NCBI GenBank assembly: GCA_944326605.1
Contig: CALVEM010000014.1
Coordinates: 1-56,023 of the forward strand
DNA: 56,023 bases
Source: Candidatus Gastranaerophilales bacterium
GTDB taxonomy: Bacteria > Cyanobacteriota > Vampirovibrionia > Gastranaerophilales > Gastranaerophilaceae
Reading direction: 5' to 3'
This document shows positions 10,748 through 43,178 of this stretch, in pieces. The position numbers and the translations under genes are program-made. Each line of letters starts with the position of its first letter. Position 1 is the first letter of the stretch. The notes beneath the pieces were generated by a model. It was not told where the DNA came from. It worked only from the letters and a program-made list of their open reading frames with translations, and did no database searches.

Positions 10748-11824
10748 ATGAGTATAATTGCAGATGACGACGATTTTAAAAATGCAACTATAGAGGATAA
10801 AAAAAAGCATTCTGTTGTGAAATCAGAATGTCTGGATAATGACAAAAATTTTGAAAACTGTATAAGACCAAAGACTTTTGATACATATATCGGGCAGTCC
10901 GCCCTGAAAGAAACCCTTAAAATATCCATAGAAGCAGCTAAAAAAAGAGGACTTCCGCTCGATCATCTTTTGTTTTACGGCCCTCCGGGTCTCGGAAAAA
11001 CCACTCTGGCAGGGGTTATTGCGGGACAAATGGGTGTTGACATAAAAATCACATCAGCACCTGCTTTGGAACGTCCGAGAGACATTATCGGGATATTAAT
11101 GTCCTTGAAAGGCGGAGAAATTCTTTTTATTGATGAAATTCACAGACTTAATAAAGTCGCGGAAGAAATCCTCTATCCTGCAATGGAAGACTTTGTTCTT
11201 GACATGACAACCGGCAAAAGTCAGACTGTAAAAACTCTCAGAATTCCACTTCCGAAATTTACGCTAATAGGTGCAACCACAAAAGCCGGAGAGCTCTCAG
11301 GACCGCTCAGAGACCGTTTCGGGATTATACACAGGCTTGAATTTTACACGGAAGATGAACTTGCTAAAGTTATTACAAGAACGGCAGGCATTTTAAATAT
11401 TGATATAACCGAAGAAGGCGCTCACGCAATTGCAAAACGTTCAAGAGGAACGCCGCGCATTGCAAACAGACTTGTTAAGCGTGTATCGGATTATGCTCTT
11501 GTAAAACATGACGGGAAAATTACCGAAGATGTTGCTAATAAGTCATTAGATATATTAAAAATTGATAATTTCGGTCTTGATAATACAGACAGAAGCCTGT
11601 TACGCTTAATTATAGAAAAATACGACGGCGGTCCTGTCGGTATTGAAACCATCGCAGCTGCAATAGGCGAAGATGTCAGGACAATAGAAGATGTGTGCGA
11701 GCCGTTCCTTTTACAGGCAGGCTTGCTGCAGCGCACGCCGCGGGGAAGAAAAGTTTCGCCCGCGACTTACAGACATCTCGGCTATAAAAATATTAACGAC
11801 AATGAACAACAAAGTTTGTTTTAA
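10748..11824 (+). CDS. ruvB: Holliday junction branch-migration helicase RuvB
   Basis: A 358-residue AAA+ motor that forms a hexameric ring on DNA and drives branch migration with RuvA during recombination. It has Walker [12 protein letters not shown] (about residue 79), Walker [11 protein letters not shown], sensor 1 IGATTKAG, the arginine finger in GPLRDRFGI, and a C-terminal winged helix ending [17 protein letters not shown]. The N-terminal 25 residues are a divergent extension. The ribosome-binding site is GAGGAAAG. No ruvA or ruvC is nearby. The stop codon overlaps the convergent prepilin gene by 4 nt. Confidence 0.97.
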
Positions 11825-12915
11825 TAGTTCATTTCCCATCCGTCATTTAAAATTTTCCCGAAACACCCCCACCAATATGAAGCTGATGTCCCGTTAACAC
11901 AGTAAGCTTCATATATTTCTTCTCTTTTTTCTTTTGTTAAAGGCGCAGTCAAAGTTTCATTTCCTTCAGAGCCGTTACTTTCATCAATTATTCCGTTTTT
12001 ATAAAGTAAAAGAGGAAAAATATCACGTCCTACAATATTAGGACCTTTCCGTCCGTTAGTATCGACATACAAGGTTGTTTTAGCGTTTGTTCTCCCAAGA
12101 ACTGCTATTGATGCACCGCTAGCAAGTACAAATGTGTGCATTTCTGCAGGAATTAATTGCCCTTTAGACGCTCCGTTCATCAATTTATATTCATCTGCAA
12201 AACAAGGAGAATGATCCGTGCCGCAATCATTTACAACTTTAAAATAAGTTTTAATCCAATCAGCAGCGGCATCGGTAGATGTTAACCCTGCCTCTTTCAA
12301 ATCTATAGCATTTTTATCGGTAATATATTGAAGCGCAGCCTGCTGGGCTTCATTATAAATTTTATGCAACTGCGTTACAAAAACTTTACGCTGGTGGTTT
12401 TGCATCAATGTCGGGACTGTCATTGCAGAAACAACACCAATAATGCCGAGTGTGACGAGAACCTCTGCGAGAGTAAAGGCAGCTTTTTTATAAGGTGAAT
12501 AAGTGAATAGGTTAATATGTGAATAAGTTCGTTTCAGGAAAATATTAATGTCATCCTGAACTCGTTTCAGGATCTCTTGAAAGCCAGATTGACCTTTGTG
12601 TTTCTGCTTCTCGTGAGATCCCACCCGCATTGGGACATTTTGCTCGAAATCATAAATTTCGGCAAAAGCAGTCAAACAAAGTTCGGGATGACAGATTGCT
12701 AATTTATTATTGATATTAGCTTTGCATCTATACCTCTTAGCATCTTTGCTTCTTGTTAATAGATCCTGAAATAAATTCAGGATGACATAAATGATACTTG
12801 CTTTGCTTCTTTGCCTCTTAGCATCTTCGCATCTGATTGCGTCTTTGCTTCCGGCGGAGCCTACAGCCCCCCCCCCCCCCCCGAAGCTCCGAAAGTTTTC
12901 AATCAATCTTTTCAT
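11821..12915 (-). CDS. Phase-variable prepilin-type protein, locus 1 (frame open, G16)
   Basis: Reading from the ATG at 12915 (AAGGAG ribosome-binding site about 9 nt upstream), the 364-residue product starts [12 protein letters not shown] poly-G tract then encodes five glycines, a long basic repeat-derived leader follows, and the prepilin signature [18 protein letters not shown] has its conserved Phe at 147 and Glu at 151. Type IV prepilin leaders are normally under 30 residues, so 146 is exceptional. The mature part has one hydrophobic helix, a globular domain and cysteines suitable for disulfides ([16 protein letters not shown]). PilD-type cleavage would release it into a pilus or secretion pseudopilus. 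No ATG with a ribosome-binding site lies near the prepilin signature, which supports the upstream start. Loci 2 and 3 share the layout. Confidence 0.8.
12550..12692. repeat. Dispersed palindromic repeat, copy in prepilin locus 1
   Basis: This is an element bounded by GTCATCC and GGATGAC that contains small hairpins (TCCTGAACTCGTTTCAGGA and an AGTTCGGGATGAC arm). The same element occurs at 31387-31478 and 42949-43040; this copy is about 50 bp longer. A further half-palindrome (gatcctgaaataaattcagg) lies at about 12763-12782. All are read through in frame by the prepilin gene. Confidence 0.8.
12867..12882. repeat. Homopolymer C16/G16 tract at the start of prepilin locus 1
   Basis: Sixteen consecutive C on the plus strand, or G in the coding direction, begin 12 codons into the gene. 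With 16 G the frame continues into the prepilin. Confidence 0.9.
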
Positions 12916-20663: not shown

Positions 20664-20694
20664 AAAATCCCTCTTTTAAGAGGGATTTTTTATT
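20664..20694. terminator. Bidirectional terminator between convergent genes
   Basis: AAAATCCCTCTT / AAGAGGGATTTT forms a perfect hairpin flanked by A- and T-rich tracts, serving both the gene at 19944-20663 and clpB. Confidence 0.9.
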
Positions 20695-23290
20695 ATGCTT
20701 TTTTGAAAACAATTTCGTCATTATCAACATCAATTATGACCTTGTCGCCTCGCAGGAACTTTTGAGCAAGAATTTGTTTTGACAGAGGGTTCTCGATTAA
20801 CTGTCTTATAACACGTTTCAATGGTCTTGCACCGTACACAGGATTAAAACCGCGTGTGGCAAGGAATTCTTTAGCATCATCGGTTATTTCAAAGTCAATT
20901 TCCTGATCTTTTAACAATTTTCTCAGATAATCCATTTGAATATCAACAATTTTTGTCAAATCCTGCATATTCAATGCTCTGAAGAAGATTGTTTCATCAA
21001 TTCTGTTCAAAAATTCAGGTTTGAACCTGCTTCTTAGAACTTCCAGAACCTTTTCCTTTGTGTCTTCAAAGTTCTGTTTAGAGCCTATAGAATTCAAGGT
21101 ATTTTCAAGAATTATATCGCTTCCGATATTTGATGTCATAATAATCAATGTATTTTTGAAATCGACTGTTCTTCCTTTTGAATCTGTCAAACGACCGTCA
21201 TCAAAAATTTGAAGCATAATATTGAAAACATCAGGGTGAGCCTTTTCAATTTCATCAAAAAGAACGACAGAATATGGTTTACGTCTGACAGCTTCCGTTA
21301 ACTGACCGCCCTCATCGTAGCCGACATATCCCGGAGGTGCGCCGACTAACCTTGAAACATTATGCTTTTCCATATATTCAGACATATCAATACGTATAAG
21401 CGCATCTTCATCGTTGAACATAAATTCCGCGAGAGATTTTGCAAGTTCAGTTTTGCCGACACCTGTCGGTCCTAAGAATAAGAAGGTACCTATTGGACGT
21501 TTCGGGTCTTTCAAGCCTGAACGGGCTCGGCGGATTGCATCGGCGACAGTATCAACAGCCTCTTCCTGACCGACAAGACGTTTATGAAGAATTTCTTCCA
21601 TATTAAGAAGCTTTTGTTTTTCGCTTTCCACAAGTTTGTTAACCGGAATACCTGTCCACTTGCTTACGACATTTGCAATATCTTCATCATCTATTTCTTC
21701 TTTCAGCAGTTTATTATCTGTTTTTTCTTTATTCTGAACAGCTTTTAACTGCTTTTCAAGTTCAAGCAGTTTTCCATACTTTAATTCAGCAGCAGTCTGC
21801 AAATCAGTATTACGCTCAGCTTCTTCTATTTTATTTTTAACTTTTTCGATTTCTTCTTTAATGCCTGCCTCACCTGTAATTGAAGCTTTTTCCTGCTCCC
21901 ACTGAGTTTTTAATTTGCCGATTTTACCTTCCAATTCATCTATCTGCTTTGACAAATCAGCAACTTTAGCTTTTGCATCTTCATCATCTTCTTTTTTGAG
22001 CGCTTCACGTTCAATTTCAAGCTGAATTTTTTGACGCATCATTTTATCAATCTCTTCAGGCATTGAATCAATTTCAATACGCAAAGATGAAGCAGCTTCA
22101 TCAATCAAATCTATTGCTTTATCAGGTAAAAATCTGTCTGTAATATATCTGTCAGACAATTTCGCGGCAGCAATCAGGGCGCTGTCAAGTATTCTAATTC
22201 CATGGTGAACTTCGTATTTTTCTTTCAAACCTCTGAGGATAGAAATTGTATCTTCAACAGACGGTTCTCCGACCATAACAGGCTGGAAACGTCTTTCTAA
22301 AGCAGGATCTTTTTCAATATATTTGCGGTATTCGTTAATTGTTGTCGCGCCGATAGTTCTCAATACACCTCTTGCGAGCATAGGTTTCAAAAGGTTGCCT
22401 GCATCCATTGAGCCTTCTGTCGCACCGGCACCGACTACTGTATGAAGTTCATCTATAAACATTACAATCTCGCCGTTTGAATCTTCAACTTCTTTTAATA
22501 CAGCTTTCAAACGTTCTTCAAATTCGCCTCTGAATTTTGCACCTGCAACAAGAGCGCCCATGTCAAGAGAAACAAGTTTGACATCTTTCAAACTTTCCGG
22601 TACATCTCCCCTTACAATACGCTGAGCAAGACCTTCAACTATAGCGGTTTTACCGACGCCCGGCTCACCGATTAAAACAGGGTTGTTTTTTGTTCGTCTG
22701 TTCAAAACCTGAATAATCCTTCTGACCTCTTCATCTCTGCCGATTACAGGATCTAATTTTCCTTTTCTGGCAAGAGCTGTCAAGTCTGTTGAATATTTTT
22801 CAAGCGCTTTCATATTTTCTTCAGCATTTTTATTATCCACTTTTTTATTACCTCTTATTTTTTTCATTACATTCAAAACTTTATTTGTATCCACGTTGTA
22901 ATTTCTCAATAGCAGTTGAATAGGGCTGTTATCAAGTTTTGTCATGGCAAGAAGAATTGATTCCGCGCTTATAAATTCGTCCTTAAATTCTTCTGCCTGC
23001 TGTCCTGCAAGATCCAGCAGTCTGTATGTCTGCGTTGACAAAAATACCTGCCCCGAAGGCGGACCCGAAATTGTCGGAAAAGAATTTACGACAGAAACAA
23101 TTTTATTTATAAATCCTTGCTCCAATAGCTTTAATTCTGTTAAATAATCTTTTATTGCGCCGTTATCTTTAATCATAGCAAGCATTATATGTTCCGGCTG
23201 CATCTCAGAATTTCTGTGTTCCTGCATAATTGCTCCTGCAGAATTCAAAAGTTCCTGAGAATAATTGGTAAACTTCTCAAAATTTGGCAT
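20693..23290 (-). CDS. clpB: ATP-dependent disaggregase ClpB
   Basis: An 865-residue Hsp100 chaperone that threads aggregated proteins through a hexameric pore together with DnaK. The layout is complete: N-terminal Clp_N repeats (1-145), AAA1 with Walker [19 protein letters not shown], the coiled-coil M-domain at about 405-525 (Glu/Lys-rich), AAA2 with [17 protein letters not shown], and the C-terminal domain with [16 protein letters not shown]. The start at 23290 (MPNFEKFTN) has an AAAGGAG site 9 nt upstream. An in-frame TTG 9 nt earlier is less likely. No HrcA/CIRCE operator is visible upstream. Confidence 0.96.
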
Positions 23291-23299
23291 ACACGTCAA

Positions 23300-23591
23300 C
23301 TCCTTTAATAAAAATATATTATATTATCATTTTAACGTTATTTTTCAAAAAGTCATTGAAATTAATGTTTAATTAATAATTAATTGTTTATATTGACAAA
23401 ATATAATAATAGAGAAGCTTTGCCCCCCCCCATTTTGTAAGAATACCGGACAACTCGCTTCACACGCCACTCTTCACTAAAATAAAATAATAAATTTAAG
23501 TTCTATAGTTACTCAAATAATGAGCACAACAAAAATACTTTTTTAAGATATTGTTGACAATGCGGTGCCATTATTTAGGATGACTGGAAAA
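23300..23591. other. Gene-free spacer with a C9 tract
   Basis: A 290-nt AT-rich spacer upstream of clpB. It contains nine C at 23423-23431, which on the minus strand directly follow an AT pair to form ATGGGGGGGGG, and a GC-richer segment at 23440-23475 that looks like a dispersed repeat. No ribosome-binding site or sustained reading frame follows the tract. The clpB promoter probably lies at 23320-23360 (TATAAT-like runs). Confidence 0.5.
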
Positions 23592-30591: not shown

Positions 30592-31607
30592 TTACTTTAG
30601 GCTTTCATCACCTGATTTTACAATGAGCGAAGAAATTGCATTTTTCCACTCATCTAATGTTAAATTCCTATGCAGATAATCCATATTGCCGGTTGAAATT
30701 ACCCATAAGGAACACCCGCCGCCCTTCCACCAGCTGCCCGTTCTGACAGGGGAACAATACACACTACCAGACATCCACCATTTTGCAAAACCTGATATGA
30801 CAGGATAATTATTTTTACTGTTCAACGTGATATAAAAATAATCTTTTCCCAGTTGATTAGGACCTTTTAAGCCATTTGTATCAACCTGTAACAACGGCAT
30901 ATTTAAATCACCATCATAACCGATACCAATTATTGTTCCGTCATTCATGACAAACTTATAATTAGTTGTTGGGAAAGCATTGTTTGATTTAATCTCACTA
31001 CCGTCAATATCCGTATAGGTTACTTGATATAAAATATCAGGACGATCAAAGCCCCAGATTTCTACAACCTTTAAATATGGCGACAGAATATCAAAATACG
31101 TTTTCGCGCAGTCAGTATTTTTTGCAGGACACCACGTACTTGCTATTCCGTTTTCTTGATAAGCACCTAAATATGCCTGATACAAAACGGAATACGTTCT
31201 TTTAAAAGAAGTTAACCAAGACCTTTCCTGATATTTCGAAATCAAAACTGGTAATGTCATGGCTGCGACTACGCCAATGATGCCGAGGGTGATTAAAATC
31301 TCAGCTAAGGTAAAGGCGGCTTTTTTATAAGGTGAATAAGTGAATAGGTTAATAAGTGAATAAGTTCGTTTCAGGAAAATATTAATGTCATCCTGAACTC
31401 GTTTCAGGATCTCTTGAACGTCGGATTGACATCCAAGTTTCAGCATCTCTTGAGATCCCGAACCAAGTTCGGGATGACAGATTGCTAATTTATTATTGAT
31501 ATTAGCTTTGCTTCTTTGCCTCTTTGCATCTTCGCTTCTAATTGCGTCTTTGCCTACGGCGGAGCCTACAGTGCCCCCCCCCCGAAGGTGTCAAAATTCT
31601 TTAACAT
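30592..31607 (-). CDS. Phase-variable prepilin-type protein, locus 2 (frame closed, G10)
   Basis: An ATG at 31607 with an AAAGGAG site 8 nt upstream encodes MLKNFDTF followed by a G10 tract. In the sequenced state the frame ends in TAG after GGGAL, so the prepilin is not reached. Adding one G, or losing two, joins this start to the long downstream frame. That frame carries the repeat-derived leader and then [20 protein letters not shown] and a 215-residue pilin domain with paired cysteines (STWCPAKNTDC, SVYC, GGGC). The continuous frame without the leader opens at 31446 with a poor internal ATG. Its mature part is nearly identical to locus 3 except for one loop and the C-terminus. Confidence 0.75.
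31387..31478. repeat. Dispersed palindromic repeat, copy in prepilin locus 2
   Basis: A 92-bp element bounded by GTCATCC and GGATGAC containing the hairpins TCCTGAACTCGTTTCAGGA and CCCGAACCAAGTTCGGG. It matches 42949-43040 closely and lies inside the coding leader of the prepilin gene. Confidence 0.85.
31574..31583. repeat. Homopolymer C10/G10 tract at the start of prepilin locus 2
   Basis: Ten consecutive C on the plus strand, read as G in the gene, begin after eight leader codons. With 10 G the frame meets TAG immediately after the tract. Confidence 0.9.
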
Positions 31608-42120: not shown

Positions 42121-42153
42121 ATAGACCGGCTTTAAAGCCGGTCTATGTTTTTA
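42121..42153. terminator. Bidirectional terminator
   Basis: A 26-bp perfect palindrome (ATAGACCGGCTTT and its complement) is followed by GTTTTTATTT on the plus strand. It terminates the phosphohexomutase gene and may also serve prepilin locus 3 on the other strand. Confidence 0.92.
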
Positions 42154-43178
42154 TTTATCTAATGAATCTTTATTCAAATCGACAAGTAAATTCTTTACTG
42201 CATTGCTCCATTCATCTAATGTTAAATTCCTATGCAAATAGTCCATATTGCCGGTTGAAATTACCCATAAGGAACACCCGCCGCCGCTCCACCAACCGCT
42301 TTGCGTTGTATTTGTGCAATAAATACTCCAAGACATCCACACTTTTGCAAAACCTGATATGACAGGATAATTGTTTTTACTATTTAATGAAAAATAAAAA
42401 TAATCTTTACCCAGTTGATTAGGACCTTTTAAGCCATTCGTATCAACCTGCAACAACGGCATATTTAAATCACCATCATAACCGATACCAATTATTGTTC
42501 CGTCATTCAAAACAAACTTATAATGAGTTGTTGGGAAAGCATTGTTTGATTTAATTTCGCTACCATCAAGATCTTTATAGGTTACTTGATATAAAATATC
42601 AGGTCGATCAAAGCCCCAAATTTCTACAACCTTTAAATGAGGTGACAGAATATCAAAATAAGTTTTGGCACAGTCACTATTTTTTGCAGGACACCAGGTA
42701 CTTGCTACTCCGTTTTCCTGATATGCACCTAAATATGCCTGATACAAAACAGAATAAGTTCTTTTAAAAGAAGTTAACCAAGACCTTTCCTGATATTTTG
42801 AAATCAACACAGGTAATGTCATTGCTGCTACTACACCGATTATCCCGAGGGTGATTAAAACCTCTGCAAGAGTAAACGCTGGGCGTTTACGAGGAGAATA
42901 AGGAAATAAGTGAATAGGTGAATAAGTTCGTTTCAAAAAGTTATTCTCGTCATCCTGAACTTGTTTCAGGATCTCTTGAACGTCAGATTGACCTCCGTAT
43001 TGCTGCTTCTCTTGAGATCCCGAACCAAGTTCGGGATGACAGATTGCTAATTTATTATTGATTACAGCTTCGCATCTTTGCATCTTAACGTCTGTGCATC
43101 TAATTGCGTCTTTGCCTACGGCGGAGCCTACAGTGCCCCCCCCCCGAAGCTCCGGAATTTTTCATTTAATCTTTTCAT
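42151..43178 (-). CDS. Phase-variable prepilin-type protein, locus 3 (frame closed, G10)
   Basis: From the ATG at 43178 (AAGGATG-type site upstream) the leader reads MKRLNEKFRSF, followed by a G10 tract. The sequenced frame stops at TAG after GGGAL. One added G would continue through the repeat-derived leader into [19 protein letters not shown] and a pilin domain of about 220 residues. The open frame alone begins with a poorly supported ATG at 43083. The mature protein matches locus 2 for most of its length and differs mainly in the segment AKVWMSWSIYCTNTTQSGWW (against AKWWMSGSVYCSPVRTGSWW in locus 2) and in the last 20 residues. Confidence 0.75.
42949..43040. repeat. Dispersed palindromic repeat, copy in prepilin locus 3
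   Basis: A 92-bp element bounded by GTCATCC and GGATGAC, nearly identical to 31387-31478, with the same two internal hairpins. It is in frame with the downstream prepilin. Confidence 0.85.
43136..43145. repeat. Homopolymer C10/G10 tract at the start of prepilin locus 3
   Basis: Ten C on the plus strand start after eleven leader codons on the minus strand. The flanking bases (CTTC before, CACTGTAGGCTCC after, coding strand) equal those of locus 2. Confidence 0.9.

Follow-up and report, generated by a model that had tools for sequence, protein, structure and literature searches.

The gene called here locus 3 raises the question of what it means that a pilin-like coding sequence is cut off from its own start codon by a run of ten G and one missing base. 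It lies in a stretch of 56,023 nucleotides (the window), which is contig C14 of a 2.05-Mb genome (G000). A preliminary description had assigned to the locus an ATG at 43178, eleven codons, ten G and a TAG stop, and this layout was confirmed on the minus strand (Table 1). The same description held that the 1028 nt to the stop codon require one more base. From the ATG to the TAA at 42151 there are indeed 1028 nt, one base short, and with one G added (G11) a single open frame of 342 codons results, which includes the leader, the prepilin motif and a mature part of 241 residues. The contingency-locus test, which looks for a run of at least eight identical bases near the 5′ end, found the G10 right after codon 11, and in a computed frame test gain or loss of one G shifted the gene in or out of frame.

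Table 1. Features of locus 3 and the two other prepilin loci of the window
Feature	Positions	Strand	Basis
Shine-Dalgarno-like AAGGA, 5′ of the locus 3 start codon	43187..43191	(-)	read directly from sequence
Start codon ATG, locus 3	43176..43178	(-)	sequence and frame test
Codons 1-11, MKRLNEKFRSF, resembling sister loci	43146..43178	(-)	sequence comparison
G10 tract, proposed switch; prepilin frame needs 2 mod 3 (8, 11, 14)	43136..43145	(-)	frame test
TAG terminating the ATG frame at G10	43128..43130	(-)	sequence
Leader, 259 nt, of dispersed repeat modules; prepilin frame is the sole open one	42877..43135	(-)	
Mature pilin-like part, 241 codons from FTLAEVLITLG; cleavage expected after Ala at -1	42154..42876	(-)	N_methyl (Pfam) and IV_pilin_GFxxxE (NCBIfam) above cut-off; model pLDDT 85.8
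Locus 2, paralogue, ATG 31607, G10 at 31574-31583, likewise one base short	30592..31607	(-)	
Locus 1, prepilin gene, ATG 12915, G16 at 12867-12882, open as assembled	11821..12915	(-)	

The prepilin motif of locus 3 was recognised by two profiles, PF07963 (N_methyl) with 23.9 bits against a cut-off of 21.2 and TIGR02532 with 20.8 against 16.3. A Pfam search with the mature part alone gave no match. The AlphaFold2 model of the mature part comprises an N-terminal helix (residues 3-55) and beta strands, and its best match in a fold search was a type IV pilin of N. gonorrhoeae, at a weak level (Foldseek E 0.1; Z 4.4, rmsd 3.7, 130 residues aligned). The genome contains one match over cut-off to the prepilin peptidase family PF01478 (C1:233147-233536). 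Prepilin leader peptides are usually about 5-25 residues long. The leader of locus 3 has 101 residues (342 less 241), which far exceeds this and makes processing of the product uncertain; sister loci with 23-33 nt 3′ of the run have leaders of ordinary length. Locus 3 is thus a prepilin-motif gene with an extended leader and not a standard prepilin.

Locus 3 had been described as a repetition of the pattern of locus 2. The two have in common the ten-G tract and the one missing base, but locus 2 has eight codons before the tract, not eleven. Nor can locus 3 be called an independent copy, as had been proposed: three other genes of the genome share 85-87% identity with its mature part, and its leader comes from a repeat family. 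A further suggestion, that two closed copies and one open copy out of three give a snapshot of a switching population, was not supported either. Locus 1 is without the CA that follows the tract in loci 2 and 3 and is in frame at 10, 13 and 16; because its flank differs and it would be open at 10 or 13 too, it is not merely that allele in switched form. Genome-wide only 4 of 72 prepilin loci are open and in frame, and it is this count to which the three-copy count should give way. The window also contains an intergenic G9 (23423-23431) upstream of a ClpB gene (20693-23299), crossed by no open frame of 100 codons, and a search of the window against Rfam returned a single match, a tRNA. A 16S pattern matched nowhere in G000.

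G000 contains 89 G/C runs of at least 8 bases. Their lengths are strongly peaked: 74 have exactly 10 bases, ten have 9, two have 11, and lengths of 8, 12 and 16 occur once each. In the 370 kb of the genome examined for shorter runs as well, there were 2 runs of 6 and none of 7 against the 74 of 10, so the ten-base runs form a class of their own. Dinucleotide shuffles of the window gave on average 0.04 G/C 9-mer runs, the observed number being 13, and no shuffle matched it. G/C runs of such length are not due to chance.

The prepilin cleavage/methylation motif consists of a small residue followed by F, E at +5 and a hydrophobic stretch; 108 prepilin motifs were found in the G000 sequence examined. 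Seventy-two of these lie under runs; stated from the other side, 72 of the 89 runs sit 23-694 nt upstream of a prepilin motif and on its sense strand, 49 as G and 23 as C. Every one of the 72 loci has an upstream ATG with a Shine-Dalgarno score of 4-5, the prepilin frame is free of stops back to the tract in 70, and in 69 it extends for at least 129 codons from the motif on. For the leaders of at least 60 nt (61 loci; the 11 of 72 with shorter leaders were left out of this count) the prepilin frame contains 5 stops and the other two frames 424 and 555, and leaders entirely without stops number 59 of 61 in the prepilin frame and 0 of 61 in each of the others. The run length that joins the start codon to the prepilin frame (the open length) equals 2 mod 3 in 68 of the 72 loci. 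Fifty-nine of those 68 were assembled at 10, and among all 62 prepilin runs of length 10, 59 are one base short. This setting does not come from a fixed spacing: mod 3, the distances 5′ and 3′ of the run take every value, one offsetting the other, in G-sense and C-sense genes alike. The seven runs of 9 before prepilins all keep an open length of 11, so the run floats against fixed flanks. Open and in frame as assembled are C1:252243 (G10), C12:44367 (G11), C12:55791 (G11) and locus 1 (G16). The view of locus 3 as a prepilin gene with a slippable G-run, off as assembled, is supported, and the same design recurs in dozens of genes and in several species.

We consider it quite probable that these loci represent a very large repertoire of prepilin genes subject to poly-G phase variation, in which the frame lies one base off the modal run length and most genes are off. 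Switching, the central interpretation of the preliminary description, is judged likely. Since runs usually have 10 bases and almost every locus opens at 11, any one gene would be off in the majority of cells and on in a minority.

Four further genes (C7:7340, C2:31863, C2:50462 and C13:21332) have the same kind of leader and another motif, FTLAEMMVVM. Their open frames have 346-760 codons, and they represent a different class of pilin-motif protein under the same putative switch.

The frame setting would be immaterial if translation started 3′ of the run, so that the run had no effect. Such a start is available in some loci: the longest listed table-11 ORF of locus 3 begins at a leader ATG (43083), and an internal in-frame ATG with a Shine-Dalgarno score of at least 4 is found in 13 of the 72 loci, though only in these. 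The remaining 59 have none, the loci with 23-33 nt between run and cleavage site leave little room for another start, and leaders are open far upstream of any internal start. We therefore give an internal start next to no credence.

The runs resemble each other also in their flanks, outside prepilin genes as well as within them. A C precedes the run in 72 of 88 cases and follows it in 82 of 88, and a T stands at -2 in 75 of 88; among the 16 runs without a prepilin the C is found before the run in 12 and after it in 13. Six ORFs that do not encode prepilins (C2:3445, C2:27094, C2:120805, C3:13884, C4:50277 and C5:26905) carry a G10 or C10 and are in frame at 10. In two of these the run is internal to long open stretches (432 and 417, and 261 and 263 codons on either side), and two resemble glycosyltransferases by eye. 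These six ORFs are candidates for default-on switching.

The Gs of the runs keep to one strand per contig irrespective of gene direction. On G000 contigs with at least two runs this holds for 82 of 85 runs, the random expectation being 54.7 and the maximum in 20,000 draws 68, and strand agreement within contigs was seen also among the 50 of 59 runs listed for G001. Contig by contig, the G-bearing strand is in most cases the G-richer one, presumably the leading strand; GC skew measured locally matches the G strand for just 68 of the 89 runs. That the Gs lie on a single strand of each contig suggests a part for the direction of replication in maintaining or creating the runs.

The preliminary description had proposed comparison with related genomes. 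Thirteen genomes of the genus, G000 included, have 11-155 runs of at least 8 each, 863 in total, 624 of them exactly 10 bases long, and the length peak at 10 is present in most of the thirteen. Eight genomes from other genera of the order contain 0-3 runs of exactly 10. Two relatives were analysed by locus, after removal of duplicate runs by their flanks: G001, from which 50 of 59 runs were fetched (48 distinct), and G004, represented by stretches of five contigs with 49 of its 155 runs. Of 43 prepilin loci in G001, 42 are open, 38 have an open length of 2 mod 3 and one is on as assembled; the corresponding numbers for 35 loci in G004 are 33, 31 and none. The design is thereby supported and the frame setting is common to three species; with one genome per species, this comparison bears on the design and not on the on/off state of the same locus. 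Each of the two genomes has a single match to the peptidase family PF01478, as does G000. G001 has short leaders, with 23-154 nt following the run, and they are unlike those of G000, so the frame setting is independent of repeat-built leaders. Runs of 9 before prepilins again keep an open length of 11, in 3 of 3 cases in G001 and in 3 of 3 in G004, where one case is doubtful as another prepilin frame encloses the run. A G11 does not always mean an open gene: among the relatives' G11 runs, L252, L257, L260, L265, L270 and L343 have an open length of 1 mod 3 and L272 of 0, and one of the two prepilin G11 runs of G001 is out of frame. In G002 the runs are longer (8-16) and of mixed strand, only 12 of 87 being exactly 10, and the leader is another one, MKKITISALNP (loci L305-L331). 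The six open-frame prepilin loci read in that genome are all off by one in the opposite direction.

These counts bear on two other explanations of the missing base. One is that the assembled lengths are wrong, the true runs having 11 bases and the genes being simply on. G-runs are hard to sequence, and PMC9187656 reports true lengths unlike the deposited ones. A uniform shortfall, however, would break the six non-pilin ORFs that are in frame at exactly 10, and the same G10 that is "on" in these is "off" in most prepilins, which argues against it; moreover, runs of 11, 12 and 16 do get assembled, and most of the 13 genomes show the same peak at 10. We regard assembly error as very improbable. 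The other explanation, and the main alternative to phase variation, is programmed slippage: the run would stay at 10, and slips of one base by RNA polymerase or the ribosome, occurring at a steady rate, would yield a little pilin from every gene in every cell from unchanged DNA. It would account for 74 of 89 runs being exactly 10, for 59 of 62 length-10 prepilin runs being one base short and for the same peak in most genomes of the genus. Yet a constant slip would require the flanks to compensate for runs of 9, and they do not (13 of 13 in three species, one case doubtful); the six ORFs in frame at 10 indicate that this length is not special to slipped genes, and G-sense and C-sense runs behave alike. 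Programmed slippage is in our opinion unlikely as the explanation of these loci, and at the RNA level it may act alone or together with switching in DNA. That one length is "on" in one class of genes and "off" in another argues that mutation balance sets the run length and that each class of genes has its own choice of frame.

In G000 the leader, from the run to the cleavage site, is frequently pieced together from repeats and reaches about 230 codons. The leader region of locus 3 has 95 matches in the genome, 94 of which overlap a tract-to-motif leader. Rickettsia palindromic elements are likewise dispersed repeats inserted in frame within genes; the leader repeats differ from them in that 94 of 95 matches occupy one place of one gene family. 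Amino-acid selection on the leader, sought through differences by codon position over 46 leader pairs, was not found (955, 871 and 1079 differences at the three positions, the mature parts giving 217, 135 and 394). From these patterns the leader looks like ballast, tolerated as long as it stays open. For locus 3 and three paralogues, all off as assembled, dN/dS was 0.20-0.41 in the mature part versus 0.53-0.80 in the leader. By this comparison, the mature part of the four closed genes is under purifying selection, which a dead gene would soon lose, so the four are probably expressed at times. Taken together, dN/dS, the 69 of 72 long frames and the peptidase match indicate that genes closed in the assembly are probably used.

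Such genes might alternatively form a silent archive, unexpressed donors that recombine into an expressed pilin gene, in which case the frame would be irrelevant. The mosaic leaders with their common modules do suggest exchange among copies, but donors need neither a ribosome site and ATG of their own nor a frame kept through long leaders, and each of these genes has both. An archive seems to us even less credible than an error of assembly.

Under phase variation, the preferred reading, translation of about 70 prepilin genes would be gated by a G/C run placed between the ribosome binding site with its ATG and the prepilin cleavage site. At a length of 10, a stop shortly after the run would prevent any pilin from being made, and a replication slip to 11 (or 8, or 14) would connect start codon and prepilin frame. 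Translation would then include the long leader, which is presumably removed by the single A24-type prepilin peptidase of the genome, and the pilin may join a type IV pilus-like fibre. For this to hold, run length would have to change reversibly within the population and the protein would have to be made, processed and assembled; the purpose may be diversity of surface fibres from cell to cell. Several observations speak against phase variation. Run lengths are very uniform (74 of 89 at 10), perhaps more so than a run free to vary would be; hardly any locus is on as assembled (4 of 72 loci in G000, 1 of 43 in G001, 0 of 35 in G004); and the six prepilin loci read in G002 miss their frame by one base in the opposite sense. 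We can propose a genus-wide rule only tentatively, holding it to be somewhat less probable than its opposite: a common mutational balance would keep runs near 10, the frame would be set one base away so that a small random subset of pilins is on in each cell, other genes with the same run would be on at 10, and replication direction would be involved.

Poly-G loci of Campylobacter jejuni have mixed surface functions. In Neisseria pilC, a G-run at the beginning of a pilus-related gene sets the frame in or out, as in the loci described here; in contrast to these, PilC is a pilus-associated protein and not a prepilin, and it is present in one or two copies. Frameshift phase variation of pili through pilC appears as an entry in the reference list of PMC5084427. 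According to the parts of PMC4965091 and PMC4085013 used here, C. jejuni NCTC11168 has 29 loci with G/C runs of at least 7, and its runs have an insertion bias at 8-9 and a deletion bias at 10-11 (as cited in PMC4085013), which would give an equilibrium length near 10. The genome studied here resembles it in having many G/C runs, but differs in that 72 of 89 serve a single gene family, in which the frame is set in one common way. The nearest precedent is Bifidobacterium breve, whose sortase-dependent pili are phase-variable. A G-run in the first pilin gene keeps two of its pilus operons off in the deposited genome; slippage was demonstrated, and after mouse passage the in-frame length was enriched (PMC9187656). 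Both would be gut bacteria, a Gastranaerophilales-like gut lineage being a guess for G000 from a protein motif; both have a G-run early in a pilin gene that is off as deposited, and in both one frame joins the signal and pilin parts. In contrast to the two B. breve loci, with sortase-type pilins and Sec signals, there are about 70 here, with type IV prepilin signals, and the leader is built from repeats, of which none is described in the sections of PMC9187656 on which we draw. Among the papers listed in searches of the open PMC literature, none recognisably described G-runs in prepilin leaders. The mechanism is a known one, of unusual scale and anatomy.

Annotation pipelines may call such genes truncated, or place their start inside the leader. 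If switching is true, the share of cells that express each pilin would equal the share of its runs at 11, and the different frame settings of gene classes would offer a natural test of why they differ. Compared with other species, to the extent that the cited portions of the literature describe them, this would be an unusually large phase-variable set from a single gene family in one bacterium, and the lineage would possess a large combinatorial surface code.
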